A stretch of 64,000 nt of DNA, taken from the NCBI GenBank assembly GCA_036365515.1, contig CM070875.1, forward strand, positions 89,356,128 to 89,420,127, given 5' to 3'. Positions 2,374-35,919 of the stretch are shown piece by piece. The notes beneath the pieces are model-generated. The model saw nothing but the letters and a program-made list of their open reading frames with translations. It did no database searches and was not told where the DNA came from. The translations under genes were made by a program, and so were the position numbers. Each line of letters opens with the position of its first letter. Positions within the stretch are counted from its first letter, which is position 1. The stretch comes from Torymus aiolomorphi. Lineage: Eukaryota > Arthropoda > Insecta > Hymenoptera > Torymidae.

Positions 2374-2401
2374 ATTACTATATTTCACATTAACAATGGA
2401 G

Positions 2402-3421: not shown

Positions 3422-3551
3422 GGTAACATCGTACACGTGATGCGTATTTTTTGTTTCTTTCACATGACAGTTTCTTACTTATTATATGTACATACTATCT
3501 TGTATCATGGGTTTCGGCCCGTATGTTATTAAATAAATAAATAAATAAATA
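3422..3551 (+). mobile_element. Short retroposon tail with (AAAT)n
   Basis: The related block at 31195-31230 reads AACAATATTATTATT without an insert. Here ~125 bp ending in GGGTTTCGGCCCGTATGTTA and seven AAAT units splits that sequence, with AATATT on both sides. This fits a 5'-truncated LINE or SINE 3' end with its target duplication. It is too short to assign a clade. Confidence 0.6.
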
Positions 3552-5047: not shown

Positions 5048-5444
5048 GCCTTTACAAAATGCGAAGCTCAAAGTTTGCCAAGTTAACTACCCTTACGTAA
5101 CAGCACCTGATACTAAGTTTTTTCACAAAACACTTTTATGCATCCATTTGCTCTTGTTTTTTTTACAAATTATTACTACATTATTAAATTTGTGCTAAAA
5201 TTTACCTCTAGCATTCTATTGCATATTCTAAAGCTGGAATTCGTTTCATTATTTTGGTATCCATATATTTCTTTTTCATAATATTTTTTTTTTATCATAC
5301 ACATAATCTTATAAAATTAAAATCACAACCAGTTGATGAATTAAACATTATTATTATCTCAATCTTGTATAGAAAAATATGTACTAAAAACTTCTCTGAA
5401 ACATTTTGACATCTCCTACCGTGAGAAAATCATGAAATAGATTA

Positions 5445-11823: not shown

Positions 11824-11828
11824 GTTAC
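11824..11828. other. Copia target-site duplication (GTTAC), left
   Basis: GTTAC here and at 35915-35919 flanks the Copia LTR ends. Five bp is the usual Copia duplication length. Confidence 0.9.
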
Positions 11829-12100
11829 TGTAAATTATGATGGATGTAGTAAGTCTGGGACACAGAGCTTCTTCAAATAAGCACACACACCGGCTAACAT
11901 GAACAGTAAATATCTTTATTAATTCCCGGCTTCTCCAGTACAGCTCTTTCGCTTACAACCGCTCTGTGCGGAGGGCGACGATCAAGTGAGCTCCCGCTCG
12001 GGCGCTCGCTCTCGCTATACTCTTACCTAGTCTTATGTAAGGTGGCGCTGCGCATCTACTTTCTACCTTTCTGATATAAATGTACTCACATATTCCAACA
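11829..12100 (-). mobile_element. Copia 3' LTR (272 bp)
   Basis: On the minus strand the LTR runs from TGTTGGAATATGTGAG to CATCATAATTTACA, so it has TG...CA ends. A purine-rich tract (GTAAGGAGGCG, 12101-12111) lies just upstream of it in element sense. Its partner is the split LTR at 13963-14154 plus 35835-35914, with about seven differences over 272 bp, so the insertion is fairly young. Confidence 0.92.
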
Positions 12101-12140
12101 CGCCTCCTTACATTTATATCTCTCGCTATTACAATATTCT

Positions 12141-13737: not shown

Positions 13738-13951
13738 AGGAATTTCCTTTGTTACCTCTTTATCTTCTGTTTAAAAAAATTCTTCTTCACTTTCAGTTTC
13801 ACTTGACTTTTCACACTTTACTTTAGGTTCTTCTTTTACGCTCACGCGTCTTCCTTTGCTCTCGAACTTTTTTCTTTCATGCATCAAACTTTCCCACTAC
13901 TTGCCGAGGCTTGCATTGGGTCAGAATCAAACAATGTTCACAAACCACAAA
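13738..13951 (-). other. Copia 5' leader
   Basis: Sequence between the primer-binding site and the gag start in element sense. It is rich in acidic/lysine codons on the minus strand, interrupted by stops, and probably leader with a degraded upstream reading frame. Confidence 0.4.
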
Positions 13952-13962
13952 CACTGCTACCA
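13952..13962 (-). promoter_or_regulatory. Copia primer-binding site
   Basis: Directly inside the 5' LTR the minus strand reads TGGTAGCAGTG. This matches the complement of the initiator tRNA-Met 3' end (...CTCTGCTACCA) at all but one or two positions. Confidence 0.65.
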
Positions 13963-14154
13963 TGTAAATTATGATGGATGTAGTAAGTCTGGGACACAGG
14001 GATTCTTCAAATAAGCACACACACCGGCTAACATGAACAGTAACTATCTTTATTAATTCCCGGCTTCTTCAGTACAGCTCTCTCGCTTACAACCGCTCTG
14101 TGCGGAGGGCGACGATCAAGTGAGCTCCCGCTCGGCCGCTCGCTCTCGCTATAC
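13963..14154 (-). mobile_element. Copia 5' LTR, fragment 1 (192 bp)
   Basis: It matches the intact LTR from its TGTAAATTATG edge up to CTATAC. The intact copy has exactly 192 bp from that edge to CTATAC (11829-12020). The remaining 80 bp lie at 35835-35914 beyond the giant insertion. Confidence 0.95.
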
Positions 14155-14789
14155 CCAGCGTTGGCCCCGCGAGGATGCTCCCGATGAAACGGAATCATTT
14201 GATTAAGTTCAGAGCGCTGCTCCGGCAGACCGCGGTGAAGAGAGCAGATACTATAGCAAAGAATCAAGTGTTCTGTTGAGTTTTCCTTTTTACAAGAGTA
14301 AATTTGTGGAAATTATGATGTTAATATACAAGAACATATTTTAGCAGCGATGAAGAGAATTCAGATATGTATTATATACTTATTATATCCTAATAATTTT
14401 TTAGTTTTTGCCTTAGCGGAAATATTTTTGTTCTATAAAGTTTTAAAAACTGTTGGTAAGAGTTTACTATAAACTGTTAATTACCAATTATTAATTCATT
14501 TTAAATGTCATTAAAAATTGTTTGAAAGTGTTTCAAACCCGTATAAACTATTTGAAACTGCGTTCAAAATCCTATATTTCGTAACATTTATAAACAGTTA
14601 CAAATAGTTTTAAGTAATTGTTGACAATTATTAACTGTTATTGACATTAATAATTTAGTACAAGGTGAATAAAAATTATTCGAATAGATTCTTTGTGAGT
14701 TTTATTTTTCATTTCAGAAAAACGTGTACATTGCAATGCCAGCCATAGGACTAAATTTTGGAGCTGAGAACTGATTGAAAATGATTAAT

Positions 14790-16790
14790 AGCAATCATAT
14801 CTGGACTGGTGCGAATAACTTTGATCAAGATAAAAGTTATTATGTTTAAGGGAGGTGAATAATTATGTGTTATCGGGTTCATAAACTTTATGGAACTTTA
14901 TGTAAAAGCTTTTGGATAGAAGAAAATATTGATGAGTAACCCGTGAGCATAAATAAACAATATAATTTATGATGCTGATTTGACATATTGGTCTGAGCTT
15001 TGGTTTGACATCTTCAACGACATTAGTTGATATCAGTGCTGGGCTATTGTCCACATTTACTGAAGCACCCGTTAAAAGATTGTGTTAAATGAATATTGAT
15101 ATACTGAAAAAAGAGAAAATGATGTGTTATTGTGAAAACTGTAGTGAATAAAAGTGTTCAGTTAATCTAATTTATGATTTTGTCAAGGTGGGAGACGTCA
15201 AAATGTTTCAGAGGAGATCTTTGTAAATATTTTTCTACACAAACTTTAAAAATTCTCAGTGATTCTTAGTTTCTAAACTGGTTGTGATTCTTAATTTTAC
15301 TAGATTATGTGTGACAATTATGGGTTATTAATTTAAGTTGATTCAATCAATAATAATTTCATATGTACTCTATAGTGTTTGCAACTGAATAATTTTTTCA
15401 CGCATTGTGGATTTAGAATGATGTTTTACAAATGGCTATAATATCTGGGCTGTTGCGAATAACTTTGATCAAGATAAAAGTTATTATGTTTCAGGGAGGT
15501 GAATAATTATGTGTTATGAGGTTCATATACTTTATAATAAGCTTTTGCATAACAGAAAATATTGGTGAGTGACACGTGAGCATAAATATACAATATAATT
15601 TATGACGCTGATTTGAAATATTGGTCTGAGACTTGGTTTAAAAAGAATTTTTCATCTTCAACAAAATTAGTTTATATCAGTGTGCTGTGCTATTGGACAT
15701 ATTTACTCAAGCACCAGTTAAAAGAATATGTTAAATGAATACTGAAATATTTTAAAAAGCGAAAATGATGTGTTATTGTGAAAATTTTAGTGAATAAAAA
15801 TGCTCAGTTAATCTAATTTATAATTTTATCACAGTGGAAGACGTCAAAATGTTTCAGATGAGTTCTTAGTAAATATTTTTCTACATAAGATTTAGATAAT
15901 AATTTGAAAAAGTTATATCCATTCAAGAATGTCAAGAAAGCTTTAATAATTCTCAGTGATTCTTAGTTCATAAACTGGTTGTGTTTCTTAATTTTACTAG
16001 ATTATTTGTGACAATTATGGGTTATTAATTTAAGTTGTTTCAATCCATAATAATTTCAAAAGTTCTCTATAGTGTTCACAACTGAATGATTTTCTCAAGA
16101 ATTGGGGATTTAAAGTGATGTTTTATGGTACATAAATGGCAATCATATCTGGACTCTTGCGAATAACTTTGACCAAGATAAAAGTTATCATGTTTAACGG
16201 AAGTGAATAATTATGTGTTATGAGGTTCATATACTTTATAATAAGCTTTTGCACACAAGAAAATATTAGTGAGTATAGTGACACGCAAGCACAAATATTA
16301 TGAGGTACATAAACTTTATAATAAGCTTTTGCATAGAAGAAAATATTGGTGAGTGACACGTGAGCATAAATATACAATATAATTTATCATGCTGATTTGA
16401 AATATTGGTCTGAGACTTAAATTGGTTTAAAAAGAAATTGTCATCTTCAACAAAATTAGTTGATATCAGTGCGCTGTGCCATTGTACATATTTACTCAAG
16501 CACCAGTTAAAAGAATATGTTAAATGAATATTGAAATATTTTAAAAAGCGAAAATGATGTGTTATTGTGAAAATTTTAGTGAATAAAAGTGCTCAGTTAA
16601 TCTAATTTATAATTTTATCACAGTGGGAGACGTCAAAATGTTTCAGAGGAGTTCTTAGTAAATATTTTTCTACACAAGATTCAGATAATAATTTCAAAAA
16701 GTGATATCAATTCAAGAAAGTCAAGAAAGCTTTAATACAAATGATAATCATATCTGGACTGGTGCGAATAACTTTGATTAAGATAAAAGT
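14790..16790 (+). repeat. Tandem ~0.6-0.7-kb units in the left arm
   Basis: The phrase GCGAATAACTTTGAYCAAGA starts at about 14810, 15452, 16157 and 16759 (periods ~645, ~705, ~600). Each unit also carries AGTTAATCTAATTTAT and GACGTCAAAATGTTTCAG. The third unit holds an internal duplication around ATAAGCTTTTGCA. The small reading frames in these units are not conserved between units in a way that suggests protein. Mirror copies lie at 33200-35140, and diverged copies at 5345-7100. Confidence 0.85.
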
Positions 16791-16799
16791 TATTATTAA

Positions 16800-17240
16800 A
16801 TATTTTCGATTTAAATTGGTTCCTAGATTGGAGAAATATTAGAAATTTGGAGCAAGGGATTTCTCAATTGAAAATGACCAAAGCTGAGCTTTTTGTCAAA
16901 AATAGCTAAATATGAGGCAATTGGAATTGGTGGCTTGGGCTTAAACGAGAAATAAATCGATTATAACACTCAAAAGCTGTGTTAGCATCTAAAGAAGGTC
17001 ACTTAAGGTCTCAAGTAGAATCAGTTTAAATGTTTAAATAAAATTGGAAGGTATGAAACAACGTCATGAAGAACGAAAAAAGACACTTGCAGATACAAAT
17101 AACTCGCATGACAGAATATCTAGATTTATAAATAGGCTACAGAAAAAGATGCAACTTGTGACAAGAGAAAGCAACATGTACAGGCAACAACTAGATACAT
17201 ATGAAATAGAAATATCTGGATACCAAAATAATAGTTAAGA
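16800..17240 (+). pseudogene. Captured coiled-coil gene fragment resembling Mad1 (left arm copy)
   Basis: From 17044 a 64-residue open stretch reads as coiled coil, including RFINRLQKKMQLVTRE and MYRQQLDTYEIEI. This resembles the conserved segment of the spindle-checkpoint protein Mad1 (LQ-(K/R)-(K/R)-x-LVT-(K/R)-E ... Y). Upstream (16820-17040) further heptad-like residues (RNLEQGISQLKMTKAELF) appear, with stops between. Mad1 is a long coiled-coil protein of the nuclear envelope and kinetochore that holds Mad2; a piece this small would have no such function. It is most likely a piece of host gene carried by the element. It could be another coiled-coil protein; the motif match is from memory. 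Confidence 0.5.
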
Positions 17241-17753
17241 ACGAAAGCAAGTTAGTAAAGAAAAGCAAGAAAGTTAACTAACGAGAATGGTAAGAATTCT
17301 GAATAAATGGTTGACGTGACTGAAGCTCCTTAATATAATACAAAATAAGGAACATTAAAATTTCATTTACTATTTTGATCATGGCACTTGTAAATTAAAT
17401 ATCAATAATTTTAAGTATAAATAAATTTCTACAAAAAGTTGCATAAATTTTTTCCATTTTCTAATTTTAATTTTTCTATTCTTACATGGTCTCTTAAAAA
17501 GTTGTGGAATCCACAAGTATTCTACGAAAGTCATAACTTATAGGCAAGTGTATATTATCATTCCTTGCCAATTCTTTAATTTATTAATAAGAATTAAAAG
17601 TTCACGCAAAACCTACGTGTTTGGAAAATAAATTATTGTTATTATCTCTCTTAACAACTGCAAAGTTTCTTTTCGAATAACAATAATTACATAAAACATA
17701 TTTAAATAAGAAAAATGAAAAGTTTATGGAAAACTTATATGCTACCCAGGTGA

Positions 17754-18036
17754 TTTCTCAGGTGAGATATCATGTGAGATCTCAGGTGAGATATCATGTA
17801 TCAATTTTTAAAAATTGAAAAATTGTGTAAAATGCTTTGAAACATGTATTTTTGAGCTGGTCTGGGGGGTAAAACATCCTAAAAGGCAATTTCCAATACT
17901 GAAGAAGCTGATCTTTAATTAACGTAAGTTTTCGGCAGCATCTGGAGCAGAATCTCAGGTGAGATTTTGGCGTGAGATTTTACATGAGGTCTCACCTGAG
18001 AAATCACCTGAGATCTCACCTGAGATTTTTCAGTAG
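17754..18036. mobile_element. Foldback element FB6, GAGATCTCA-type arms
   Basis: TGATTTCTCAGGTGAGAT at the left is mirrored by ATCTCACCTGAGATTTTTCA at the right, ending GTAGGGAC. The arms are tandem copies of a self-complementary CAGGTGAGATCTCACCTG-like unit. The loop (about 17800-17940) is unrelated AT-rich DNA. It sits exactly between the end of the left inverted repeat and the first satellite unit. A remnant of its right end lies at about 19771-19800. Confidence 0.7.
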
Positions 18037-20595
18037 GGACGTAGATGTGCCATATTAGGCAAGACAATTATTTAAATAATTCCAAAACCCAAGTAGAGGG
18101 GAAAGCATGATCTGCGCGTATAAGGAAGTTACCTAGACGTGCTAAATTAGGAAAGATAATTATTTAAATAGTTCCAAAATCCAAGTTGGCGGGGAAAGCA
18201 AGATCCACGCGTATAAGGGAGTTACGTGGACGCCCGCGTGAAAATATAATATGAGATATCATGTGAGATTGTAATTGAGATCTCATATAGATTTCATATG
18301 AGATCTATATGAGTTCTCATATGAGATATCATATGAGATCCTTATACGAATTTCAGACATTATATCTCATGTGAGATCTCATATGAGATCTCATCTGCAA
18401 TTTTATAATTAATAAAAAAATTTCAGACCTTAGAACTCATGTAAAATCTAATATGAGATCTCATATGAGATCTCAGATCTCTGCAATTTTAATTAATTAA
18501 TAAATAATTTATTGTTAATGTAAAAGTATGAATAAACAGTATATTTTAATGAATCTTAAAAAAAAGCAATAAAGTTTTATCAATACGTTTTACTAATGTT
18601 AATATTTTATTTCATTCTATTTCTAAATATTCCATAAAATATAACATTTATTAAAAAAATGAATATTATAAAAAATAAATTTATTGCAAAAATAAATTAT
18701 TTATTAACTAATGAAAATTGCAGACGAGATCTCATATGAGATCGCAGATGAGATCTAATGTCTCAAATTTTTTTACTTAATAGAAAATGACTGATGAGAT
18801 CTCATATGAGATCTCATATGAGTTATATAATGTCTGAAATTCGTATAAGGATCTCATATGAGATCTCATATGAGAACTCATATAGATCTCATGTGAAATC
18901 TATATGAGATCTCAATTACAATCTCATATGAGATCTCATATTACATTTTCACGCGGGCGTGCATAATTAGGTAAGACCATTATTTAAATAATTCTAAAAC
19001 CAAAGTAGTCAGTGGAAGCGAGCTAGGTACTTGCGTATAAAGAAGTTAGCTGGACGTGCTCAATTAGGCATGATTATTATTTAAATAATTCTTAGTCGCA
19101 AGTAGCAGTGGAAAGCAAGGTCCACGCGTATAAGGAAGTTACGTAGACGTGAATAATTTGGCAAAACAATTATTTAAATAGCTCTAAAACCTAAGTAGCC
19201 GGGGGAGGCGAGGTTCACACGTACAAGGGACTTACGTAGATGATGTGCCATATTAGGCAAGATAATTATTTAAATGATTCTAAAATCCAAATAGCCAGTG
19301 GAAGTGAGGTATACTTGCGTATAAGAGACTACGTATGCGTATAAAATTAGGCAAGATAATTATTTATATAGCTCCAAAACCCAAGTTTCCGGGGAAAGCA
19401 ATGTCCACGCGTATAAGAGAGTACGTGGGCGTGTAGAATTAGGCTAGATCATTACTTAAAGACTTCTAAAACCCAGGTTACCGGGGTAGCAATGGCAACG
19501 CGTACGGCGTAGTTTCGTAGGCGTACTAAATTAGGCGAGGTCATTTTTTAAACAATTCTAAAATCCAAGTAGCCAGAAAAAAAGGTCCACGCGTATAAGG
19601 ACGTTTCCTAAATGTGCTAAACTAGGCAAGATAATTACTTAAATAATTCTAAAACTCAAGTAACCGGGGTAAGCGAGGTCCTCGCGTAAAAGAAAGTTAC
19701 GTAGACGTGCAAAATTATGGCATGATTATTATTTAAATAATCCTTAATCTCAAGTAGCCGGGGGAAGCGGCCACCTGAGATCTCACCTGAGATTTTTCAG
19801 ATAAGGGAGTTACCTAGATGTGGAAAATAAATCTAAAACCCAAGTAGACGGGGGTGGGGAGGTCCACGCGTATAAGGGAAATACGTAGACGAGCAAAGTT
19901 AGGAAAGATTATTATTTAAATTATTCTTAATCGCTAGTAGCCTGGGAAAGGAAAATCCATGCGTATGACGTCGTTGGATAGACGTGCACCATGAGGCAAG
20001 ACAATTATATAAACCAAAGTAAATAAATTCTAAAACCCAAGTAGCCGGGGGAAGCGAGGTCCTTGCGTATAATGGAGTACATAGACGTGCAAAGCCAAGT
20101 ACGACTATTATTTAAATAATTCTAAAACCCAAGTAGCCGGGAAAGCAAGGTCCACGCGTATAAGGAAGTTACCTAGACATGCTAAATTATATGCAAAACA
20201 CTTATTTAAATAATTCTCAAATCCAAGTTGCCGGGAGAGCAAGTTTCACGCGTATAAGGAAGTTTCCTAGACGTGTGAAATTAGACAAGATCATTACTTA
20301 AATAATTCTACAACAAGTAACCGGGAGAAGCGAGGTCCTCGCGTATAATGAATAAGTTACGTAGACGTGCTAAATTAACGAAGACAATTATTTAAATAGT
20401 TTTGAAACCCAAGTGGTCGGAGACAGCGAGGTCGACGCGTATTAGGTTAATTATCTAGACGTGCAAAATTAGGGATGTAAATTATTTAAATAGTTTTAAA
20501 ACCCAAGTAGCCGGGGGAAGCCAGGTCCTCGCGAATAAGGAAGTTACACAGACGCGCTGAATTAAGCAACAAAATTATGTAAATAATTTGGAAAA
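18037..20595 (+). repeat. ~105-bp satellite array, plus orientation
   Basis: The units contain the palindrome ATTATTTAAATAAT, then CTAAAACCCAAGTAGCCGGG, then a CACGCGTATAAGG box and GTTACGTAGACGTGC. About 18 units remain, interrupted by FB7. Unit-to-unit identity is moderate, with frequent base changes, so the array is not freshly amplified. No coding sequence. Not CRISPR: there are no spacers, and the units diverge along their whole length. Confidence 0.9.
18233..18957. mobile_element. Foldback element FB7, CATATGAGATCT-type arms
   Basis: CGCCCGCGTGAAAATATAAT at the left is inverted as ATTACATTTTCACGCGGGCG at the right, inside a satellite unit. The arms (~200 bp) are runs of degenerate AGATCTCATATGAGATCT, each itself a palindrome. 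The interior (18480-18720) is AT-rich. Confidence 0.8.
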
Positions 20596-21346
20596 CTAAT
20601 TGACGTGGTTTACGTGGACCTCCCATCCTCCCGCAACTTGGGTTTCAAAATTATTTAAGTAATTGTTTTGCCTGATTGTGCATGTCAACGTAACCATTTT
20701 ATAGACGAGGACCTCGCTTCCCCCGGCTACTTATGTTTAAGAACTTTTTCAATCATATAATTGCCTAATTTTGAACGCCTATCTCTCCCTTATACGCGTG
20801 GACCTCGCTTCCCACGGATAGTTAGGTTTCAAAATTATTTGAAGAATGATCTTGCATAATTTTTCATATCTACGTATCTCCCTTATACGTGTGGACCTCC
20901 CTCCCATCGGCAACCGGAGTTTTCTAATATTGAAATAATAATCATGCCTAATTTGCACGTCTACGTAACTCCCTTATACGCATGGACGTTGCCTTCCCTA
21001 GCTACTTGTGTATTTGAATTATTTAAATAATGATTTTGCCTAATTTTGTACGTCGCTGTTACTACCTGAAACACGTGTACTTCGTTTCCCCCGGCAACTT
21101 ATGATTAAAAATTATCTAAATAATAATCTTGGTTTATTTTGAACGTCTACGTAACATCCTTATTCGGACTGTCTTTACACCCCTGGTTACTTCATTTTTA
21201 GAATAATTTAAATAATGATATTGCCCAATTGTCCATGCCTACGTACTCCCTTATACGCAAGTGCCTCGCTACCCGTGGCAACTTGGGTTTAAGAATTATT
21301 TAAATAATGACATTGCTTATTTTTTGCACGCCTACGTAACTCCCTC
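20596..21346 (-). repeat. ~105-bp satellite array, minus orientation
   Basis: At about 20596 the orientation reverses: units now read CTTATACGCGTGGACC, CCCCGGCTACTT, then TTAAATAATGATCTTGCCTA. Seven or so units run up to the LINE, and the same array resumes beyond the LINE at 25442-25496. Confidence 0.88.
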
Positions 21347-21448
21347 ATTAGATTAGATTAGATTGTAAACTCGCGGAGACCATAACAGTGTAGCGCTCTT
21401 AGCTTGCTTGCCATTGTACGCTATTCCCCACCTACCTCGGGTCCCACC

Positions 21449-24400
21449 TTAGAGGAGGCCAACTGCAGAGCAGTAGTCAAGGACCCCCCTAATTCTGTGC
21501 TCCCTAATCTCTTCTGGTATTGCCACCGCCCTGCCAAACCACTTCCTTCTGGATTCCGCCAATGCAGGGCACTCACAGATCACGTGGATTGGCGTTTCCT
21601 CACAGTCTTCCCCGCACCTGGGTGTTGGAGGTTTCCAACCTGCGGGGTTCCGCAGGTCGCAGTGCTCTGTTATCAATTTTACTGCCCTTCTGAGTTGCCA
21701 CCTGCCGAGGGAGAGAAGTTCTCGGCCCCATTGGTCACCCGTTACTCCCGACATGGCCTTGGATTTGCTGCAACGCTCAGTCGCGAGCCACTTCATTTCG
21801 CATAGGCTCATGATGTGAGCAGCTATTCTGCTCCGGCCTTCTTGCGCCGACATGCCAGCTTGCTGTCTAATGGGGCCGTGAGTGCGACCCCCTTGTTTAG
21901 CAAGAGTATCCGCCCTTTCATTACCTTTCCACCCGGAGTGACCCGGAATCCAGGTTAAGTTGAGAAGGTTAACCATACCTAGTGCATCCAACGAGGTCTT
22001 TGTTTCCATTACTAACTTAGAGCAAGTAACGGTCTTCTCGATGGCTCTCAATGCCGTCTGGCTGTCCGAGCAGATCCAAATAATCTAGCCCGACTTGCTA
22101 GCCCTTGTTAGTCCCTCCGCGTATGACTTGATCGCGAGTATCTCGGCCTGGAAAACCGTGTGGTAGCTTTCCATTTTAAAGCAGACGCTGTCCTGCTGCC
22201 TAGGTCCACAGAAGCCAGCTCCCACCCCTTCCTTTGCCCTAGACCCGTCCGTGAACCAAATTTCGCCGTGTTTGGGTCTACATTCCTCCCACCTCACCCT
22301 CTCCGGAATGTGGATTTTGCATCTCCCCTTCCTTACCGGTTGAGGTGGTATTATATCCTGCGGTTCTTTCCAGAGCTCCCTCAGTGAATCCCCGAACAGC
22401 CGTTTATGCCTCTTGCTGTCCGTTTTCCACAGACCGACGCAACCTAACCGGTATGCCGTATTCATTGCCTCAGACTTGATGTGCAGTGCCAGAGACGGTA
22501 GGTTCAGCATGGTCCTCATAGCGGCACAGGGCGTACTCCTTCTAGTGACAGTTATGCTCCTTAAGAAAAGCGCCTGTACCTGATTCAGCTTCATGCAATC
22601 CGTGCTCCGCAGTGTTCTACTCCACCAGACTACTGAGGCAAACGTTAACCTCGGCACAATAATGGCAGAGTAGATCCAGTGCATTGGCCGCGGATCCACT
22701 CCCCACCTTGAATCCAATGCTCCTCTGTATTGCCAGAAAGTGGAGATTGTTTTTCTACATTTCTCCTCGAGGTACCTGCGCCAGAGTAACTTTCTATCGA
22801 GGATAACTCCCAGATATTTGGTTTCCTCTGCGAAAGGAATCTCTAAGTTCCCCGCCTTCATCTTCCTCAGCTTTCTAATTTTATAGCGCTTTGTGAAGAT
22901 AAGGGATACCGATTTATCCCCATGAATTCGCTATGCTTTGCTACTGCACCACTCCTTCGTTGCCTTGAGGGCTCCTTGAACCAAGTCCCTAAGAACTTCT
23001 TCATAAGCTTCCCTCGCTAGGATAGCTATATCGTCCACATATCCTACCGCCTTGACTCCCACCCCGTTTAGTACTCGTAGTAAGCTGTCTACCACCAGGC
23101 TCCACAGCAGGGGGGACAAAACCTGGGGACAGCCTTCGGATACTCGCCCACCGATCGAGTGTCCCATCCAGGATTCCCTACTCACCATTCCCTACTCACC
23201 ATGAAGGAGCTCATGATCCAGTCAATGATGCTCTTAGGGATACCATGTTCTACCGCATCCTTCCGGATCGCCTCTCTAGAGGTCCGATTGAACGCTCCTT
23301 CAACGTCCAGAAAGGCTCCTATGCATACTCCTTTCAGCTCAAGCTGTTCTTCAACGTAGTTGACCACCGAAAGGAGCGCTGTTTCCACTGACCTGCCCGT
23401 GCGATACACGTGTTGTTCATCGTGAAGCGGACAGATCTTCAGAGGACCTTCTTTAAGATAGCCATCCACAAGCTTTTCAATCGCGTCTTCAAAAGAAATG
23501 ACGTGGGCTAATGGCCCGGTAATCTTTCACATCCGTGTAACTCTTCTTCCCTGGCTTGGGGATGACATTCACCTTTGTTTTAAGCCACTACCTGGATGTG
23601 TACCCAAGGGCTATGCAGCCCCTCAGTACCCCTGTCAGCAGTCCCGTAATCTCCTCCAGGTCCTGTTGCAGCAGCACTGGGGTGATGTTATCCATGCCTG
23701 CAGGCATGGTGCTTTGTATGGCTGAAAGGACATGATAGCCTCTTTGACCCTTTGCGCTGTGACTACCTGCTCTGCTATGCTCCAATCCGCCTTTCTACCA
23801 GCCCTCCGGGAGGGAGGGGGGCTCGTCCGCCCCGCCCGTCCGCCTGAAGTCAGGGATATTGGTCTCCAGCAGCACTGCTGAGTCTCTTCCGGTGTCCTAG
23901 TAAAACTCCCATCAGCCTTCCTTATTAGCCTTAGTTTCCCATTTAGAGCCCCCGCTAGGACATTGAAAAGTCTAGCCGTGTCGCTTATTGTGCTACACTC
24001 TGAGCACCATTTCCTCCAAGAGTCACGGTTTTCCTCTCTAATGAGGCTCTTATAGTCTTTGACTAAGCTTGTAGGCTTCCCAAATCTCTATCGTGTTCTT
24101 TTTCCTCGCTCTATTAAAGAGCCTACCTGCTTCCTTCCGCCTTGCCTCCGACTCTTTACTCCACTCCGCCTGCTGCGTCCAGTGGTTTTTTGAGTGATGG
24201 GACAATTTTCCTCGAACACGATTGTGATCACCGTCCTGATAAAGGCTTCGGTGCGTTCCAGCTCGTTCGGTGTACCATATCTCGCCCCCTGAATCCGACT
24301 GTGCATCGCCGTATTGAGGCTCTAAAGCCATCCCAGTCTGTTTGCTTGGAATCCCTATACCAGACCACGTTGGGGACAATGCCCCTCAAGGTGGCGCTCT

Positions 24401-25005
24401 GATAATCCTATGGTCCGACATGGAGGGCTCCTCAGAGACTCTCCAGTCGTGAACCCATCCCTTCAGCAGTCCGAAACAGAAGGTGGTATCGAGTACCTCG
24501 CTTCTGTTAGACGTAACAAAGGTCGGTTCCGCATCTGTGTTTAAAACCATGAGGTTTTTCTCAATCGGGTACTCCAGGAGTTCCTCCCCCCGCTCATTTG
24601 TGTCCGTGCTACCCCACACCTCATTGTGGGCGTTGGCATCACATTCAACAATGAGCCCGAGTCCTTCCTTCCTACAGTATCTGGTTAACCTTTTAAACTC
24701 CTCTGGGGGAGATTTTCTCTCATGCGCACAGTAAGCAGATGCTACGATGAACTCTTTGCCCCTGTTAAAGCCGTACTTCCCACGAATTCTTACCACCGAG
24801 TCGCCTCCAGCCCTTTCACGACTACGCATGCTCATTGCCCGACATGCTCCCCACTCGCGTAGACATGCCCCATGACCGATAGTCCCTTTATCTCCTTCCT
24901 GACCAGCCAGGGTTCTTGCACCAGCGCAATAGCTGGGCATGTGTGTCTGACAGTCATGCACCTGGTTAATACCACTGAGGTGCTTTTACTGTGATGCAAG
25001 TTAAT
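21449..25005 (-). pseudogene. LINE ORF2: endonuclease, reverse transcriptase, RNase H (decayed)
   Basis: On the minus strand, in order: the start of an APE-type endonuclease (LQINLHHSKSTS near 25000), its core (VECDANAHNEVWGSTDTNER) and SDHRII near 24410. Reverse transcriptase follows between ~23900 and 22100, with FLDVEGAFN, GCPQVLSPLLW (two residues usually present before VLSP are missing) and the catalytic YVDDIAIL. An RNase H comes next (WFTDGSRAKEGVGAGF, QAEILAI, WIPGHSGWKGNERADTLAKQ), then a C-terminal zinc-knuckle-like CGEDCEETPIHVICECPAL. A downstream RNase H fits the LOA or related clades. At least five frame breaks or stops separate these pieces, so it is dead. Confidence 0.85.
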
Positions 25006-25017
25006 TTGCAGGATGTC

Positions 25018-25441
25018 TCAATGCTGATCCACCCCTACATCATCCTGCTTCCCTTTCGCGTCCTCGCCAACCGGATTTTTCGAAGACCAGCTAAAGGTGA
25101 TCTCGCTTGTCCCCAGGAAGGCCTTGCCAACCCTGGCCTCTAGCACACCCAGAGGGGCCTCGTCAACCCCCAGGCGAAGGAGGCAAGCCGGGCCCCCCTC
25201 CAAGCACTGGAGAATCCTCCACTTTGACGTATCCAACACCGGGTTCTGGCGCCCCAGGAGCTTGACCAACTGGGAGGCTTCTCTTCTTGGCCGCGGTACC
25301 AGTGCCGTCACATTGACTCTCTTAATGAGTTCCTCTGGGACGACAATCCACGCCAGAGTCACGACACCGAGATTGGTGGACGGCACTGCCTCTCGCAGCC
25401 ACCGCTCCGACTCCCCATCATTACAAATGAAGGTCGCTTCA
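25018..25441 (-). pseudogene. LINE ORF1 (gag-like), C-terminal part
   Basis: An open frame on the minus strand from the truncation point to a stop at 25018. It includes ICNDGESERWLREAVPSTNL, VVTLAWIVVPEELIKRV and LLRLGVDEAPLGVLEARVGK, the style of sequence seen at the end of ORF1 proteins of LOA-type LINEs. The N-terminal part is missing because the copy is 5' truncated. No zinc knuckles remain. Confidence 0.65.
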
Positions 25442-25496
25442 CTTTATTTAAAGTTAGAATTATTTAAATAATGATCTTGCTTAATTTTCTACGTCT

Positions 25497-25742
25497 AACA
25501 AACTAAACTAACTGGGGTAAGCAAGGTCCACGCGTATAAGGGATTTATAGTCGTGCAAAATTAGGCAAAATCATTATTTAAATAATTCTACAACCTAAAT
25601 ATTCGGGGGATACAAGATCCACGCACAAAATCCCCTTATGTTGACATGCAAAATCAGGCAAAATAATTACTTAGATAATTTTAAAAACCAAGTAGCCGAA
25701 GGATGGTGGGTTCACGTAAAGGAGGGCATTAGAATGTTTTTA
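25497..25742 (+). repeat. Short plus-orientation satellite block
   Basis: After a minus-oriented remnant (25453-25496) two to three units read GGTCCACGCGTATAAGGG in plus orientation, then switch back near 25742. The block mirrors 20600-20850, including a matching degenerate unit: ACAAAATTATGTAAATAATT at about 20571 has its inverse, ATTATTTACATAATTTTGTT, at about 25745. Confidence 0.75.
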
Positions 25743-28700
25743 GTATTATTTACATAATTTTGTTACTTAATTCAGCACGCCAAGGTAACTTCTTTATACG
25801 CAAGTATCTCGCTTCCACTGGCTACTTGGGTTTTCGAATTATTTAAATAATGGTATTGCCTAATTATGCACGTCCACGTAACTCCTTTATATGCGTGGGC
25901 CTTGCTTTCCCGGCAGCTTAAGATTAGGCATTATTTAAATAATAATCTTGCGACAATTTTGCACGTCTAAGTAACTTTCTTATACACGAGGATCTCGCTT
26001 CTCCCGGTTACTTGAGCTTTAGAAATATTTAAGTAATAACCTTGCCTAGTTTAGCACGTTTAGGTAATATCCTTATACGCGTGGACCTTTTTTTTCTGGC
26101 TACTTGGATTTTAGAATTATTTAAAAAATGACCTCATCTAATTTAGTACGCCTACGAAAATACGCCGTAAGCGTTGCCCTATTGCTACCCCGGAAACTTG
26201 GATTTTGGAACTATTTAAATAATGATCTAGCCTAATTTTACACACATATGTACTCTCTTATACGCAAGTATACCTCACTTCAACTGGCTATTTGGGTTTT
26301 ATAGAGCTATTTAAATAATTGTTTTACCACATTATTCCCGTCTACGTAACTTCCTTATACGCGTGGACCTTGCTTTCCACTTCTACTTGCGACTAAGAAT
26401 TATTTAAATAATAATCATGCCTAATTGAATATGTCCACCTAACTTCTTTATACGCAAGTACCTACCTGGCTTCCCTTGGCTACTTGGGCTTTAGAATTAT
26501 TTAAATAATGGTCTTGCCTAATTATACACGTCCACGTAACTCCCTTATATGCGTGGACCTTGTTTTCCCCGCCAACTTAGGTTTTGGAACTATTTAAATA
26601 ATTGTATTCCCTAATTTAGCGTGTCTTGGTAACTACCTTATACGCGTGGGCCTTGCTTTCCCGGCTACATGGGTTTTAGAATTATTTAAATTATGACCTT
26701 GCCTAATTTAGTACGTCTACGTAACTCCGCTATGCGCGTTGCCTTTGCCTCCCCGGTTACTTGTCTTTTAGAATAATTTCAATAATATTGTTGCCTAGTT
26801 GTACACGTCTACGTAACACCCTTATACGTGAGGACCTCGTTTCACCAGGCTACTTGCGATTAATAATTATTTAAATAATAATCTTGCCTAATTATGCACA
26901 TCTACGTAACTCCCTTATACGCGTGGAACTTGTTTTCCCCGAAACTTGGCTTTGGAACTATTTAAATAATTGTCTTCGCTAATTTAGCACGTCTAGGAAA
27001 CTTCCTTATACGGGACGACCTCGCTTCCCTCGGTTTCTTGAGTTTTAGTATTATTTAAGTAATGATATTGCCTAATTTTACAAGTCTAGGTAACTTCCTT
27101 ATACGCGTGGACCTTGCTCTCCCGGCAACTTGGGCCTTAGAATAATTTAAATAATTGTTTTGCCTATAATTATGCACGTCTGCGTAACTCCCTTATATGC
27201 GTGGACCTTGCTTTCCCCGCCAACTTGGGTTTTGGAATTGTTTAAATAATTGTCTTCCCTAATTTAGCTCGTTTAGGTAACTTCCTTATACGCGTGAGCC
27301 TAGCTCTCCCGGCTACTTGGGTTTTAGAATTATTTAAATTATGATCTTGCCTAATTTAATACAATTACGTCACTTTGCTTTGCACGGTGCCTTTGCTTCC
27401 CCGGTTACTTGTGTATTAGAATAATTTCAATAATGATGTTGCTTAGTTTTGCACGACTACGTAACACCCTTATACATGAGGATCTTGTTTCACCAGGCCA
27501 CTCGCGATAAAGATTTATTTAAATAATAATCTTGCCTAATTATGCACATCTACGTAACTCCCTTATACGCGTGGACCTTGCTCTCCCGGCAACTTGGGTT
27601 TTAGAATAATTTAAATAATTGTTTTGCCTATAATTATGCACGTCTGCATAACTCCCTTATATGCGTGGACGTTGCTTTCCCCGCCAACTTGGATTTTGGA
27701 ACTGTTTAAATAATTGTCTTCCCTAATTTAGCTCGTCTACGTAACTTCCTTATACGCGTGGACCTTGCTTTCCACTGCTACTTGCGACTAAGAATTATTT
27801 AGATAATAATCATGCCTAATTGAGTATGTCCACCTAACTTCTTTATACGCAAGTACCTAGCTGGCTTCCCTTGGCTACTTGGGTTTTAGAATTATTTAAA
27901 TAATGGTCTTGACTAATTATGCACGTCCACGTAACTCCCTTATATGCGTGGACCTTGTTTTTCCCGCTAACTTAGGTTTTGGAACTGTTTAAATAATTGT
28001 CTGACCTAATTTAGCGTGTCTTGGTAAGTACCTTATACGCGTGGGCCTTGCTTTCCCGGCTACTTGGGTTTTAGAATTATTTAAATTATGACCTTGCCTA
28101 ATTTAGTACGTCTACGTAACTCCGCTGTGCGCGATACCTTTGCTTCCCCGGTTACTTGTGTTTTAGAATAATTTCAATAATGATGTTGCCTAGTTTTACA
28201 CGTCTACGTAACACCCTCATACGTGAGGACCTTGTTTCACCAGGCTACTTGCGATCAAGGATTATTTAAATAATAATCTTGCCTAATTATGCACATCTAC
28301 GTAACTCCCTTATATGCGTGGACCTTGTTTTCCCCGAAACGTGGCTTTGGAACTATTTAAATAATTGTTTTCGCTAATTTAGCATGTCTAGGTAACTTCG
28401 TTATACGGGACAAGGTCGCTTCCCCCGGTTTCTTGAGTTTTAGAATTATATAAGCAATGATCTTGCCTAATTTTACACGTCTAGGTAACTTCCTTATACG
28501 CGTGGGCCTAGCTTTCCCGGCTATTTGGGTTTTAGAATTATTTAAATTATGACCTTGCCTAATTTAGTACATCTACGTAACTTTGCCGTGCGCGGTGCCT
28601 TTGCTTCCCCGGTTACTTGTGTATTACAATAATTTCAATAATGATGTTGCTTAGTTTTGCACGTCTACGTAACACCCTTATACGTGAGGACCTTGTTTCA

Positions 28701-30960
28701 CCAGGCTACTTGCGATTAAGAATTATTTAAATAATAATCTTGCCTAATTATGCACATCTACGTAACTCCCTTATACGCGTGGACCTTGTTTTCACCGAAA
28801 CTTGGCTTTGGAACTATGTAAATAATTGTTTTCGCTAATTTAGCACGTCTAGGTAACTTCCTTATACGCTTGGGCCTTGCTTTTCCGGCTACTTGGGTTT
28901 TTGAATTATCTAAATTATGACCTTGCCTAATTTAGTACGTCTATGTAACTCCGCTGTGCGCGTTGCTTTTGCATCCCCGGTTACTTGTGTTTTAGAATAA
29001 TTTCAATAATGATGTTGCTTAGTTTTGTACGTCTACGTAACACCCTTATACGTGAGGACCTTCTTTCACCAGGCAACTTGCGATTAAGAATTATTTATAT
29101 AATAATCTTCCATAATTACGCACATATACGTAACTCCCTTATACGCGTGGTCCTTGTTTTCCCCGAAACTTGGCTTTGGAACTATTTAAATAATTGTTTT
29201 CGCTAATTTAGCACGTCTAGGTAACTTCCTTATACGGGACGACCTCGCTTCCCCCGGTTTCTTGAGTTTTAGAATTATATAAGTAATGAGCTTGCCTAAT
29301 TTTACACGTCTAGGTAACTTCCTTATACGCTTGGGCCTTGCTTTCCCGGCTCTTGGGTTTTTGAATTATCTAAATTATGACCTTGCCTAATTTAGTACGT
29401 CTATGTAACTCCGCTGTGCGCGTTGCCTTTGCTACCCCGGTTACTTGTGCATTAGTATAATTTCATTAATGATGTTGCTTATGTGTGCACGTCTACGTAA
29501 CAGCCTTGTACGTGAGGACCTTGTTTCACCAGGCTACTTGCGATTAAGAATTATTTAAATAATAATCTTTCCTAATTATGCACATCTACGTAACTCCCTT
29601 ATAGGCGTGGACCTTGTTTTCCCCGAAACTTGGCTTTGGAACTATTTACTATTAGGTAACTTCCTTATACGGGACGACCTCGCTTCCCCCGGTTTCTTGA
29701 GTTTTAGAATTATTTAAGTAATGATCTTGCCTAATTTTACAAGTCTAGGTAACTTCCTTATACGTGTGGACCTTGCTCTCCCGGCAACTTGGGTCTTATA
29801 ATAATTTAAATAATTGTTTTGCCTATAATTATGCACGGCTGCGTAACTCCCTTATATGCGTGGACCTTGCTTTCCCCGCCAACTTGGGTTTTGGAACTGT
29901 TTAAATAATTGTCTTCCCTAATTTAGCTCGTCTAGGTAACTTCCTTATACGCGCGGACCTTGCTTTCCCCTCTACTTGGATTTTGGAATTATTTAAATAA
30001 TTGTCTTGCCAAATATGGCACATCTACGTAACTCCCTTGTACGTGTGGACTTCGCCTCCCCCGACTACTTAGGTCTTAGAGCTATTTAAATAATTTAAAT
30101 AGTTGAGGACGATCTTTGGAGGCAAAATGAAATGATCTTATTTCTTTATGGCAACGTTTCGTTGGCTTAGTACGCCAACCTCATCAGGCCAAAATTATAA
30201 ACGTATATATCATACGTCGATCAGATGTTATTCTCGACTCAATGAGGTTGGCGTACTATAAGCCAACGAAACGTTGCCATAAAGAAATAAGATCATTTCA
30301 TTTTGCCTCCAAAGATCGTCCTCAACTATTTAATATAAAAATGGATGGCGTTATACATTCAACATATTTAAATAATTGTCTTTCCTAATTATGCATGACT
30401 ACGTAACTTTCTTATAAGCGTGGACCTTGCTTTCCCCATCAACTTGGATTTCAAAACTATTTAAATAATTGTCTTCTCTCATTTAGCACGTCTAGGTAAC
30501 TTCCTTATATGCGTAAACCTTGCTTCGCCGGTTAATTGGGTTTGAGAATTTTTTAATGATGATTGTGCCTAGTTTTGCACGAGTACGTAACCCCCTTGTA
30601 CCCGAGGACCTTGTTCCCCCAGGCTACTTGCGATTAAGAATTATTTAAATAATAATCTTGCCTAATTTTGCATGTCTACCTAACTTCATTATACGCGTGG
30701 ACGTCGCTTCCCCCGGCTATTTGGATTTTAGGATCATTTAAATAACTTTCTTGACTAATTGGGCACACGTACGACCCCCCCCCCCCCGCCGCTACTTAGA
30801 ATTAATAATTATTTAAATAATTTTGTAGCCTAATTTGACTCATCTACGTAACTCCCTTATACGCGGGGACCTTGCTTTTCCCTGCTACTTGCGATTAAGA
30901 ATTATTTTAATAATTACCTTTCCTAATTATTCGACGTCTACATAACTCCCTTATATGTCT
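25743..30960 (-). repeat. ~105-bp satellite array, minus orientation, higher-order structure
   Basis: About 48 units with the same consensus as the left array, inverted. Variants recur in blocks: a unit with GTGAGGACCTTGTTTCACCA returns near 26830, 27478, 28225, 28686, 29052 and 29512. That is a multi-unit higher-order period of ~370-750 bp, typical of unequal exchange in satellites. Interrupted by FB8. A run of ~15 C lies at about 30775-30787. Confidence 0.88.
30101..30329. mobile_element. Foldback element FB8
   Basis: AATAGTTGAGGACGATCTTT at the left is inverted as AAAGATCGTCCTCAACTATT at the right. The arms are ~95 bp and carry GGCAACGTTTCGTTGGC, with a ~40-bp loop. It is inserted in a satellite unit. 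The motif pair (CCTGATGAGG / GCCAACGAAACG) resembles that of FB1. Confidence 0.8.
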
Positions 30961-31449
30961 CGTACTGGGACTCCCAAATGATTTTGTGATTTTTGGCTTC
31001 GACTATCTGACAGCAGAAAATAAGCACAAAAATATGTCCTTTTTCCATAATCGCCAAATCGAATACTCGCAAAGTTACCAGAAAGCGGTCTGCTAGCTTA
31101 ATTTTATAAGCTAGCAGATAGCACGTTTCTCGGAAACGGCTATAGCAGAAAAATCGATTTAGGCGTAGGATAATATACTATACTTGCCTCATTTTATACT
31201 TTCATAGAAAGTTTTATATTAACAATATTATTATTTGAAGAGTTATGAAAAAATTATCACCATTTGCAAAGTGTGCTTATTGACTTGATAAGATTCGAAG
31301 AAATAAAAGGACTGCTTAAAAATTGTGTTGTTAAAACTTACTTAAAAAATTTCTTCTTCTTAAAAACGTGTTGATTGTTTAAAAAAAAATATTTAAGCTC
31401 TTATTAAAGTTTTTGGTATTCAGTTTGACGAATGTTGGTTGAGACAGGG

Positions 31450-31529
<80 letters not shown>

Positions 31530-32200
31530 GAGAGAGAGGCTAATACTTGCCTTAGTTTAAACATTTGTATAATGTTATGAGAGTTTATTATATAGTACAT
31601 TTTTAATATTATTATTAAATAGAAGTATTGTTAGTCACAATACGTTAGACACAAAAAGTTTTAAATTTGAATGTTTCTATAAGGAGCTCGATACAATGAT
31701 TACATTAGTAACGTTTCTTGAAATAATATAATCAAACCTGTATTTTATGTACGATAATAAATTTTCAATACTATTAATTTGTAAAGTCATATGAAAATAT
31801 ATTTCTTTTTATTTTTATAGATTCCAGGAAAACCTTATACGTGCCTTATTTTATACTTTCGCAGAAAGTTTTATTATTTCTACTTTAATTTAGATAAATG
31901 AATATATCAAAAATTATTTTCGAGAAAAAAATGTTAATGCATTCTTTTTAGAAAAAACATTTTTCAAACATTCTGTAGTTCTAATTTCCAAATAAAGTTT
32001 GTTAGTATATTATTCTTGTACAAAATGTCTTGTTGGCTGTTTCAAAAAAATATTTAGGCTCTTCTGAAAGTTTTTCGTGGTGTCGTTATACAGTTGTTAA
32101 GTAAGAAAAGATGAGAGAAAAGGAGGGGACGGGGGTGCTGAATTTTTTTTTACAAAGTGACTTAACGGTGGTTTAGAGAGATAATAAAAATAATTGATTT
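30961..32200. repeat. Right-side-only segment of the giant element
   Basis: This segment lies between the satellite and the right inverted repeat and has no left-side counterpart. It contains a hairpin (CTGCTAGCTTA ... TAAGCTAGCAG, about 31099-31127). Two copies of a block related to 3375-3990 start at about 31185 and 31840, with AAATATTTAAGCTCTT at about 31388 and a variant at about 32048. An imperfect (GA)n tract occupies 31451-31538. No coding signal. Confidence 0.65.
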
Positions 32201-35200
32201 TGGGTAGCATATAAGTTTTCCATAAACTTTTCATTTTTCTTATTTAAATATGTTTTATGTAATTATTGTTTTTCTAAAAGAAACTTTGCAGTTGTTAAGA
32301 GAGATAATAACAATAATTTATTTTCCAAACACGTAGGTTTTGCGTGAACTTTTAATTCTTATTAATAAATTAAAGAATTGGCAAGGAATGATAATATACA
32401 CTTGTCTATAAGTTATGACTTTCGTAGAATACTTCTGGATTCCACAACTTTTTAAGAGACTATGTAAGAATAGAAAAATTAAAATTAAAAAAAGGAAAAA
32501 ATTTATGTAACTTTTTGTAGAAATTTATTTATACTTAAAATTATTGATATTTAATTTACAAGTGCCATGATCAAAGTAGTAAATGAAATTTTAATGTTCC
32601 TTATTTTGTATTATATTAAGGAGCTTCATTCACGTCAACCATTTATTCAGAATTCTTACCATTCTCGTTAGTTAACTTTCTTGCTTTTCTTTACTAACTT
32701 GCTTTCGTTCTTAACTATTATTTTGGTATCCAGATATTTCTATTTCATATGTATCTAGTTGTTGCCTGTACATGTTGCTTTCTCTTGTCACAAGTTGCAT
32801 CTTTTTCTGTAGCCTATTTATAAATCTAGATATTCTGTCATGCGAGTTATTTGTATCTGCAAGTGTCTTCTTTCGTTCTTCATGACGTTGTTTCATACCT
32901 TCCAATTTTATTTAAACATTTAAACTGATTCTACTTGAGATCTTAAGTGACCTTCTTTAGATGCTAACAGAGCTTTTGAGTGTTGTAATCGATTTATTTC
33001 TCGTTTAAGCCCAAGCCACCAATTCCAATTGCCTCATATTTAGCTATTTTTGACAAAAACCTCAGCTTTGGTCATTTGCAATTGAGAAATCCCTTGCTCC
33101 AAATTTCTAATATTTCTCCAATCTAGGAACCAATTTAAATCGAAAATATTTAATAATAACTTTTATCTTAATCAAAGTTATTCGCACCAGTCCAGATATG
33201 ATTATCATTTGTATTAAAGCTTTCTTGACATTCTTGAATTGATATCACTTTTTGAAATTATTATCTGAATCTTGTGTAGAAAAATATTTACTAAGAACTC
33301 CTCTGAAACATTTTGACGTCTCCCACTGTGATAAAATTATAAATTAGATTAACTGAGCACTTTTATTCACTAAAATTTTCACAATAACACATCATTTTCG
33401 CTTTTTAAAATATTTCAATATTCATTTAACATATTCTTTTAACTGGTGCTTGAGTAAATATGTACAATGGCACAGCGCACTGATATCAACTAATTTGGTT
33501 GAAGATGACAAATTCTTTTTAAACCAATTTAAGTCTCAGACCAATATTTCAAATCAGCGTGATAAATTATATTGTATATTTATGCTCACGTGTCACTCAC
33601 CAATATTTTCTTCTATGCAAAAGCTTATTATAAAGTTTATGTAGCTCATAATATTTGTGCTTGCGTGTCACTATACTCACTAATATTTTCTTGTGTGCAA
33701 AAGCTTATTATAAAGTATATGAACCTCATAACACATAATTATTCACTTCCGTTAAACATGATAACTTTTATCTTGGTCAAAGTTATTCGCAAGAGTCCAG
33801 ATATGATTGCCATTTATGTACATAAAAGATCACTTTAAATCCTCAATTCTTGAGAAAATCATTCAGTTGTGAACACTATAGAGAACTTTTGCAATAATTA
33901 TGGATTGAAACAACTTAAATTAATAACCCATAATTGTCACAAATAATCTAGTAAAATTAAGAAATACAACCAGTTTATGAACTAAGAATTACTGAGAATT
34001 ATTAAAGCTTTCTTGACATTCTTGAATGTATATAGCTTTTTCAAATTATTATCTAAATCTTATGTAGAAAAATATTTACTAAGAACTCATCTGAAACATT
34101 TTGACGTCTCCCACTGTGATAAAATTATAAATTAGATTAACTGAGCACTTTTATTCACTAAAATTTTCACAATAACACATCATTTTCGCTTTTTAAAATA
34201 TTTCAATATTCATTTAACATATTCTTTTAACTGGTGCTTGAGTAAATATGTCCAATAGCACAGCGCACTGATGTCAACTTATTTTGTTGAAGATGACAAA
34301 TTCTTTTTAAACTAAGTCTCAGACCAATATTTCAAATCAGCGTCATAAATTATATTGTATATTTATGCTCACGTGTCACTCACCAATATTTTCTGTTATG
34401 CAAAACCTTATTATAAAGTATATGAACCTCATAACACATAATTATTCACCTCCCTTAAACATAATAACTTTTATCTTGATCAAAGTTATTCGCAACAGCC
34501 CAGATATTATAGCCATTTGTAAAACATCATTCTAAATCCACAATTCGTGAAAAAATTATTCAGTTGCAAACACTATAGAGTACATATGAAATTATTATTG
34601 ATTGAATCAACTTAAATTAATAACCCATAATTGTCACACATAATCTAGTAAAATTAAGAATCACAACCAGTTTAGGAACTAAGAATCACTGAGAATTTTT
34701 AAAGTTTGTGTAGAAAAATATTTACAAAGATCTCCTCTGAAACATTTTGACGTCTCCCACCTTGACAAAATCATAAATTAGGTTAACTGAACACTTTTAT
34801 TCACTACATTTTTCACAATAACACATCATTTTCTCTTTTTTCAGTATATCAATATTCATTTAACACAATCTTTTAACGGGTGCTTCAGTAAATGTGGACA
34901 ATAGCCCAGCACTGATATCAACTAATGTCGTTGAAGATGTCAAACCAAAGCTCAGACCAATATGTCAAATCAGCATCATAAATTATATTGTTTATTTATG
35001 CTCACGGGTCACTCATCAATATTTTCTTCTATCCAAAAGCTTTTACATAAAGTTCCATAAAGTTTATGAACCCGATAACACATAATTATTCACCTCCCTT
35101 AAACATAATAACTTTTATCTTGATCAAAGTTATTCGCACCAGTCCAGATATGATTGCCATTAATCATTTTCAATCAGTTCTCAGCTCCAAAATTTAGTCC

Positions 35201-35828
35201 TATGGCTGGCATTGCAATGTACACGTTTTTCTGAAATGAAAAATAAAACTCACAAAGTATCTTTTCGAATAATTTTTATTCACCTTGTACTAAATTATTA
35301 ATGGCAATAACAGTTAATAATGGTCAACAATTACTTAAAACTATTTGTATCTGTTTATAAATGTTACGAAATATAGGATTTTGAACGCAGTTTCAAATAG
35401 TTTATACGAGTTTGAAACACTTTCAAATAATTTTTAATGACATTTAAAATGAATTAATAATTGGTAATTAACAGTTTATAGTAAACTCTTACCAACAGTT
35501 TTTAAAACTTTATAGAACAAAAATATTTCCGCTAAGGCAAAAACTGAAAAATTATTAGAATATAATAAGTATATAATACATATCTGAATTCTCTTCATCG
35601 CTGCTAAAATATGTTCTTGTATGTTAACATCATAATTTCCACAAATTTACTCTTGTAAAAAGGAAAACTCAACAGAACACTTGATTCTTTGCTATAGTAT
35701 CTGCTCTCTTCGCCGCGGTCTGCCGGAGCAGCGCTCTGAACTTAGTCAAATGATTCCGTTCTGGTTCGCTCTGAAGTTAATCAAATGATTCCGTTTCACC
35801 GGGAGAATCCTCGCGGGGCCAACGCTGG
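32201..35828 (-). repeat. Right terminal inverted repeat of the giant element
   Basis: Reverse complement of 14155-17758 with the same internal order. Near the outer end it carries a ~35-bp tandem duplication of the TCAAATGATTCCGTT segment (about 35740-35797) that the left end lacks. The high identity of the arms implies recent formation or ongoing gene conversion. Confidence 0.93.
32705..33140 (-). pseudogene. Captured coiled-coil gene fragment resembling Mad1 (right arm copy)
   Basis: Mirror of the left-arm fragment. The 64 residues at 32711-32905 (minus) are identical to those at 17044-17238, while flanking bases differ in places: of ~50 bp upstream, two differ. It carries the same LQKKMQLVTRE and YRQQLDTYE motifs and the same stops upstream. 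Identical residues with changed flanks could mean selection, conversion or simply youth; these data do not separate them. Confidence 0.5.
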
Positions 35829-35914
35829 CTATACTCTTACCTAGTCTTATGTAAGGTGGCGCTGCGCATCTACTTTCTACCTTTCTGATATAAATGTACT
35901 CACATATTCTAACA
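35829..35914 (-). mobile_element. Copia 5' LTR, fragment 2, with duplicated CTATAC
   Basis: It begins with the second CTATAC copy (35829-35834) and completes the LTR (35835-35914, 80 bp) to ...TATTCTAACA. GTTAC follows at 35915-35919. 192 + 80 = 272 bp, the exact length of the intact LTR. Confidence 0.95.
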
Positions 35915-35919
35915 GTTAC

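Follow-up and report, generated by a model that had tools for sequence, protein, structure and literature searches.

A giant foldback element with CAGCG ends in Torymus aiolomorphi, probably a shortened copy of a 38.8-kb palindrome

The whole stretch of DNA that was analysed (64,000 nucleotides, hereafter the window) was placed at C3:89356128-89420127 by a search of its own genome (1.08 Gb, 21 contigs; the best 40 of 298 candidates were scored). A foldback element lies at positions 14156-35827 of the window, beginning with CAGCG and ending with CGCTG, and it has split an LTR of a Copia element. The left piece of this LTR is at 13963-14154, the right piece ends at 35914, and an intact twin LTR at 11829-12100 serves as an empty site within the window. 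The left piece of 192 bp was 96.9% identical to the twin, and the right piece was 97.8% identical. The nesting is sound, because Copia's own 5-bp duplication, GTTAC, flanks both LTRs (11824-11828 and 35915-35919). The initial annotation had considered the borders proven inside the sequence by the split LTR and its twin, and this comparison upheld that claim. The LTRs of the host Copia (11829-14154) are separated by only about 1.9 kb, so this element seems to be internally deleted too.

The left arm of the element (14156-17746, plus strand) is matched by the outer part of the right arm (32201-35827, minus strand). The inverted arms were 98.3% identical over 3561 bp (14188-17748 against 32201-35760), and the inverted repeat extended as far as either border, interrupted near the end by a single 35-bp indel, so the proposed foldback is real. 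An end alignment showed that positions 14156-14265 (plus strand) are a family-conserved terminus with subterminal repeats, of which the left copy lacks one 35-bp repeat. Between the arms' outer parts, 93-bp satellite arrays in both orientations (18039-21348) are interrupted at about 18246-18942 by a ATGAGATCTCAT palindromic repeat. They are followed by a LINE remnant on the minus strand with endonuclease, reverse transcriptase, RNase H and DUF4780 domains (21349-25440, the 5' limit being approximate) and by a long 93-bp satellite array, mostly in minus orientation (25500-30955), in which a small palindromic repeat was seen by eye (approximately 30101-30332). Each arm also carries a fragment of the host gene MAD1 that is broken by stops, on the plus strand at 16778-17232 and on the minus strand at 32717-33171 (converted from element positions 18562-19016); the two fragments were 98.7% identical. 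With its long, internally repetitive inverted repeats and little or no coding sequence, the element belongs to the foldback class.

Other genomic copies with identical ends had been predicted, and they were found in number. The family terminus is CAGCGTTGG. A search with a 28-bp terminus, allowing up to two mismatches, gave 112 + 106 = 218 ends genome-wide, and a reversed control pattern gave none. The pairing of ends was based on 100 listed ends of the 218, all of them exact and on contigs C1 to C3. Among these, 29 facing pairs were found, spanning 13.4-64.1 kb (median 30.2 kb), while neighbours within 100 kb included two back-to-back and no same-strand arrangements. No pair shorter than 13.4 kb was present among the 100 listed ends; smaller relatives may be found among the remaining 118, and the longest pairs may hold nested insertions. 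The end of the element gave no match in a scan of viral contigs.

Four relatives, E1 to E4, were read whole. E1 (25.3 kb) has the same terminus and an exact 8-bp duplication, but with differences at about 342 of 1113 arm bases it represents a second arm type. The outer 1.35 kb or so of E2, E3 and E4 showed only 4-6 differences between copies, whereas the two arms of the window element differ from each other at 19 of 1315 bases in their outer part, which suggests a recent burst and a somewhat older window copy. A permutation test that compared left-right with between-copy differences across 25 elements, using their outer 130 bp, was not significant (p = 0.076), and arm homogenisation is therefore not claimed from the ends. 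Mariner/Mos1-like transposase frames were observed near family ends at two loci, L044 (8747-9823; C3:64.9) and L031 (2536-3444), and E1 also holds a mariner transposase frame. Frames with reverse transcriptase and/or GIY-YIG domains (Penelope-like) were seen in or near related elements at L029, L045, L046 and L047. Both kinds of frame look like passengers.

The comparison of copies also corrected the ends. The base preceding CAGCGTTGGCC in other copies is A, C, G or T, and since the base before CAGCG varies between copies, the terminus is CAGCG and the element spans 14156-35827. The left target-site duplication of the window copy is GCTATACC (14148-14155) and the right one is GCTATACT (35828-35835); the twin LTR carries GCTATACT, from which the left copy differs by one base. 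Duplications were examined in 26 paired copies, namely 23 of the 29 exact-end pairs together with E1, E2 and the window copy. An 8-bp duplication was exact in 17 of the 26, had one mismatch in three (the window copy included) and was absent in six. Among these six, C2:129.25 has an exact 8-mer at an outer, doubled end, C1:213.94 has an 8-mer behind 9 bp of filler, and C1:205.34 has an imperfect 8-mer (6/8) outside a doubled end. Closer inspection of the flanks of C2:52.26, E4 and C1:246.8 revealed no matching duplication. A doubled or stuttered outer terminus was observed at the right ends of E4, E1 and C1:205.34 and at the left end of C2:129.25, possibly a trace of imprecise end joining.

When both strands of the 20 pairs with no more than one mismatch were pooled, the target motif was G-T-C-S-S-G-A-C; T2, and hence A7, occurred in 21 of 40 target sites pooled over both strands. 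CAGCG was present in all 50 aligned ends, which had been chosen by a match to the terminus. The initial annotation had read a 6-bp duplication and a CCAGCG end, by misreading one base per side, and had judged that CCAGCG ends fitted no known group. The window copy itself invites that reading, with CTATAC as an exact repeat and an extra C/G pair that resembles part of the inverted repeat. However, an element with 6-bp duplications and CCAGCG ends outside the known superfamilies is refuted by the variable base in the other copies and by their 8-bp duplications, which fit 20 of the 26 pairs, and we give it practically no chance of being correct. An 8-bp duplication with CAGCG is instead a pattern of the P or hAT kind.

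Three groups in which 6-bp duplications occur had been mentioned, and membership in each was rejected. Polinton/Maverick elements did not fit the 8-bp duplications, and the rve integrase matches lay in frames outside the element. IS3EU/GingerRoot elements have TA..TA (or TG..CA) ends and a 6-bp duplication (PMC10045372), and were rejected on the CAGCG ends and the 8-bp duplication. Dada elements have no terminal inverted repeats, target small RNA genes and make 6-7 bp duplications (PMC3706591); here the inverted repeats are long and the target is a Copia LTR.

The window copy was compared with E4 (C1:45345418-45384205). As assembled, E4 is a 38.8-kb palindrome with arms of about 19 kb that were 99.7% identical (18287/18335 aligned bases), the alignment being interrupted by gaps of 1.6 kb and 0.46 kb. 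The expectation of a longer relative carrying a transposase was thus borne out for the length, but no transposase was recognised in the inner arm of E4. The 3.6-kb arms first described in the window are present but form only the outer portion of longer arms, which extend for about 19 kb in E4. The second arm of the window element (17747-35827, minus strand) is near-complete and colinear with the E4 arm from the centre outwards; from centre to end, 15690 of 16021 aligned bases (97.9%) were identical, with seven gaps of 70-2402 bp. The left arm is truncated. It corresponds to E4 positions 1-6033 except for the number of tandem units, and at 17746/17747 the match passes from E4 position 6033 straight to the centre. 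Because the left arm ends there and the sequence then runs from the centre outwards, the window copy is best read as what would remain of an E4-like master after loss of about 14 kb of its left arm. Long stretches of E2 (31.7 kb) and E3 (32.4 kb) run colinear with E4, but both copies lack parts reaching or flanking the centre; E3 has an 8-kb insert that is itself largely palindromic. A further copy, C2:26.85 (37.7 kb), is flanked by an exact 8-bp duplication, and MAD1 pieces lie in inverted orientation close to its two ends.

Palindromes of tens of kilobases are hard to assemble, and those of the E4 type are known from the assembly alone, so that collapsed or mirrored haplotypes might have produced the inverted arms. 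Such an artefact is very improbable: the arms of the window copy differ by 1.7% over the 3561 bp, its insertion is nested in a Copia element with its own duplication, and the exact 8-bp duplications around 17 of 26 pairs also argue against it.

The LINE and the 93-bp satellite arrays are shared family parts. Both LINE junctions of the window recurred in E2, E3 and E4, and both were present in each arm of E4. Since the junctions are common to these copies, the LINE was inserted before E2, E3, E4 and the window copy separated. The MAD1 pieces were likewise found in both arms of E2, E3 and E4. In the window, each arm holds 455 bp with 80.3% identity to the parent gene, which lies at C3:3355925-3357191 and has no stops in the three exons matched. 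As judged by eye, the match takes in the end of an intron, which indicates that genomic DNA was captured. The longest exact run shared with the parent gene measured 30 nt in E2 and 39 nt in the window copy, E3 and E4. At C3:51265013, an older relative carries 1001 bp of the MAD1 gene at 81.5% identity, intron sequence included. MAD1 pieces were present in at least 14 of the 32 elements checked (67 scored matches of 368 candidates), an undercount, because the window's own two pieces were missing from the match list. Among the listed matches, all 14 neighbouring MAD1 pairs outside the parent gene were arranged plus then minus. The Pfam MAD model also gave sub-threshold matches in 2 of 14 control genomes, and the DNA match is independent of that model. 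A search of solved structures with the MAD1 piece returned no match.

No transposase was recognised in Pfam scans of the window, which covered all six frames of 14155-18950, three minus frames of 20590-25740, two plus frames of 30700-35828 and selected open frames, nor in scans of the six frames of the E4 inner arm, part of the E3 insert and part of E1. These scans left out most of the satellite stretches and returned the LINE domains and the MAD1 piece, with some weak or sub-threshold matches. The earlier statement that the element has no recognisable transposase of its own agrees with all frames scanned. By eye, none of the listed hAT or P matches in the genome (150 of 790 and 150 of 867 candidates, respectively) lay inside the 29 pairs, E1, E2 or the window copy.

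Two superfamilies were weighed as the source of a transposase acting in trans. hAT ends follow the rule YARNG, to which CAGCG conformed in the 50 aligned ends, and hobo/Hermes-type ends start with CAG, as do those of this family. The 8-bp duplications with T2/A7 likewise resemble those of hobo and Hermes, whose targets are given as GTNCGNAC (PMC3276498) and nTnnnnAn (PMC2803484), and hAT domains were common in the genome (best 150 of 790 candidates scored). However, the terminus was absent from all 24 hAT loci examined out of the 150 listed, 20 of which were read only 1 kb downstream, and hATs are described, in the part of the source concerned, as 2.5-5 kb long with inverted repeats of 10-25 bp (PMC3942097), unlike the giant arms here. 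The satellite, in addition, points to P rather than to hAT. That a hAT-superfamily transposase moves the family as a hAT foldback, by the same mechanism with another enzyme, is therefore a tentative alternative that we hold to be somewhat the less probable.

For the P superfamily, the duplications agree with a length of 7-8 bp and a motif near GTCCGGAC, as given for the P element (PMC3276498), but hobo is alike in this and the agreement is not exclusive. The best 150 of 867 candidates were scored, many in long open frames. The terminus was absent from the upstream 1.8 kb of the eight P loci examined. One of these eight, with a 915-aa frame and a Tnp_P_element domain, is adjoined by a 92-bp tandem array, and the 93-bp satellite of the foldback aligned to this array with a score of 50.5, compared with at most 11.5 in 200 letter shuffles. 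At its outer edge the array reverses orientation, and it may thus belong to a neighbouring satellite rather than to the P element. The likeness between the foldback's satellite and this array leads us to favour P slightly over hAT on these sequence comparisons, neither being proven; the chance that the family's transposase belongs to the P superfamily appears to be about even. Open frames of 500-1150 aa hold many of the 150 listed P matches, which fall into several score classes, a pattern suggestive of a recent expansion of P elements. At C2:117246833 (minus strand) and C2:117257283 (plus strand), 10 kb apart, a pair of 645-aa P transposase frames with equal scores lies in inverted orientation, and these may be a foldback carrying its own transposase.

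Most foldbacks are regarded as Mutator-like. Mutator ends start with G, whereas the end here starts with CA. Tetris of Drosophila virilis, with its foldback shape and 8-10 bp duplications, has been assigned to that group (PMC4079207), but the duplications here were 8 bp where found and had a P/hobo-like motif, and a Mutator-like foldback seems improbable. Tetris is otherwise similar, being an apparently non-autonomous foldback whose internal tandem repeats are linked to satellite DNA and whose partner was not found; it differs in having three structurally complete copies, and the available description mentions neither a giant palindrome nor a host-gene piece (PMC4079207).

The nearest relative that we found, judging from the portions of the reports available, is Galileo, a P-superfamily element of Drosophila whose longest copy is 9 kb. 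It is foldback-like, with arms extended by tandem repeats and insertions (PMC4168063, PMC3688188), makes 7-8 bp duplications, and lacks a transposase segment in its longest willistoni copy (PMC4168063). That copy is 9021 bp with arms of 4.2 and 4.7 kb (PMC4168063), compared with about 19-kb arms in 38.8 kb here. Its duplication is mostly 7 bp with the consensus GTATTAC (PMC4168063), whereas that of the present family is 8 bp, and the CAGCG ends and the host MAD1 piece also set this family apart. Galileo has a THAP site about 70 bp from the end and further sites in its tandem repeats (PMC3688188); the two subterminal repeats at about 33-97 bp from the end of the present family may parallel these, a likeness that is suggestive only. 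Metazoan Pack-TIR elements are DNA transposons said, in the text consulted, to duplicate host sequences (PMC8277862), but in the present family a giant palindrome bears the host piece in each of its arms. In Teratorn a herpesvirus is fused with a piggyBac-type transposon, and genes of that sort were not seen in the frames scanned here. A hAT or P foldback of such size was not found in the open literature searched, most subscription papers and bioRxiv lying outside that search.

We consider it probable that the window element is a copy of a giant CAGCG foldback family, likely an internally deleted 38.8-kb palindrome that was likely inserted by cut-and-paste with a transposase acting in trans and cutting the target with an 8-bp stagger. 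From the shared ends, duplications, palindrome and common LINE and MAD1 pieces we infer mobilisation in trans, growth of the arms by insertion, capture and inverted duplication, and loss by central deletions. One arm of an ancestral element would have acquired a LINE and genomic MAD1 sequence, and the loaded arm would then have become an inverted duplicate through template switching or arm-to-arm conversion. A recent burst may have spread the palindromic element, and deletions at or flanking the centre would have given shortened copies, among them the window copy, from which some 14 kb would be missing between position 6033 of the left arm and the centre. Against this explanation, E4, the fullest palindrome, has no matching duplication, and the same is true of C1:246.8 and C2:52.26. 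Nor did the 24 hAT loci and the upstream flanks of the eight P loci yield an autonomous partner sharing these ends.

Cut-and-paste transposons are usually a few kilobases long. A recent burst of 13-64 kb elements with 8-bp duplications, dispersed over scattered sites and including at least one near-perfect palindrome, would mean that transposases of the P/hAT type are able to move far larger units, and many copies are available for testing how palindromes form and are shortened by central deletions. The family also offers a test of the capture of a host gene, MAD1, and its doubling into potential hairpins. The mobile unit might be a near-perfect palindrome of about 39 kb, several times the longest Galileo copy found; its arms, if transcribed, could form an 18-kb or so MAD1 hairpin RNA, and each copy would then be a mobile silencing locus. 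We regard this as unlikely, though if true the hairpin would carry 39 nt of exact identity to the live spindle-checkpoint gene MAD1.

Small foldbacks abound in the window: four palindromic repeats of 0.4-0.8 kb were observed at 4236-5048 (with CCCTGTTGAAAAT-like ends), 5445-6075, 1458-1860 and 1855-2375. Positions 3346-7018 hold a diverged relative of the right half of the element, in pieces 74-94% identical and interrupted by palindromic repeats; its termini were looked for and not found, and a trace of MAD1 was seen at about 5168-5295. Two Gypsy-like retroelements with reverse transcriptase, RNase H and integrase domains were also present, at 44648-50418 and 56470-59441.
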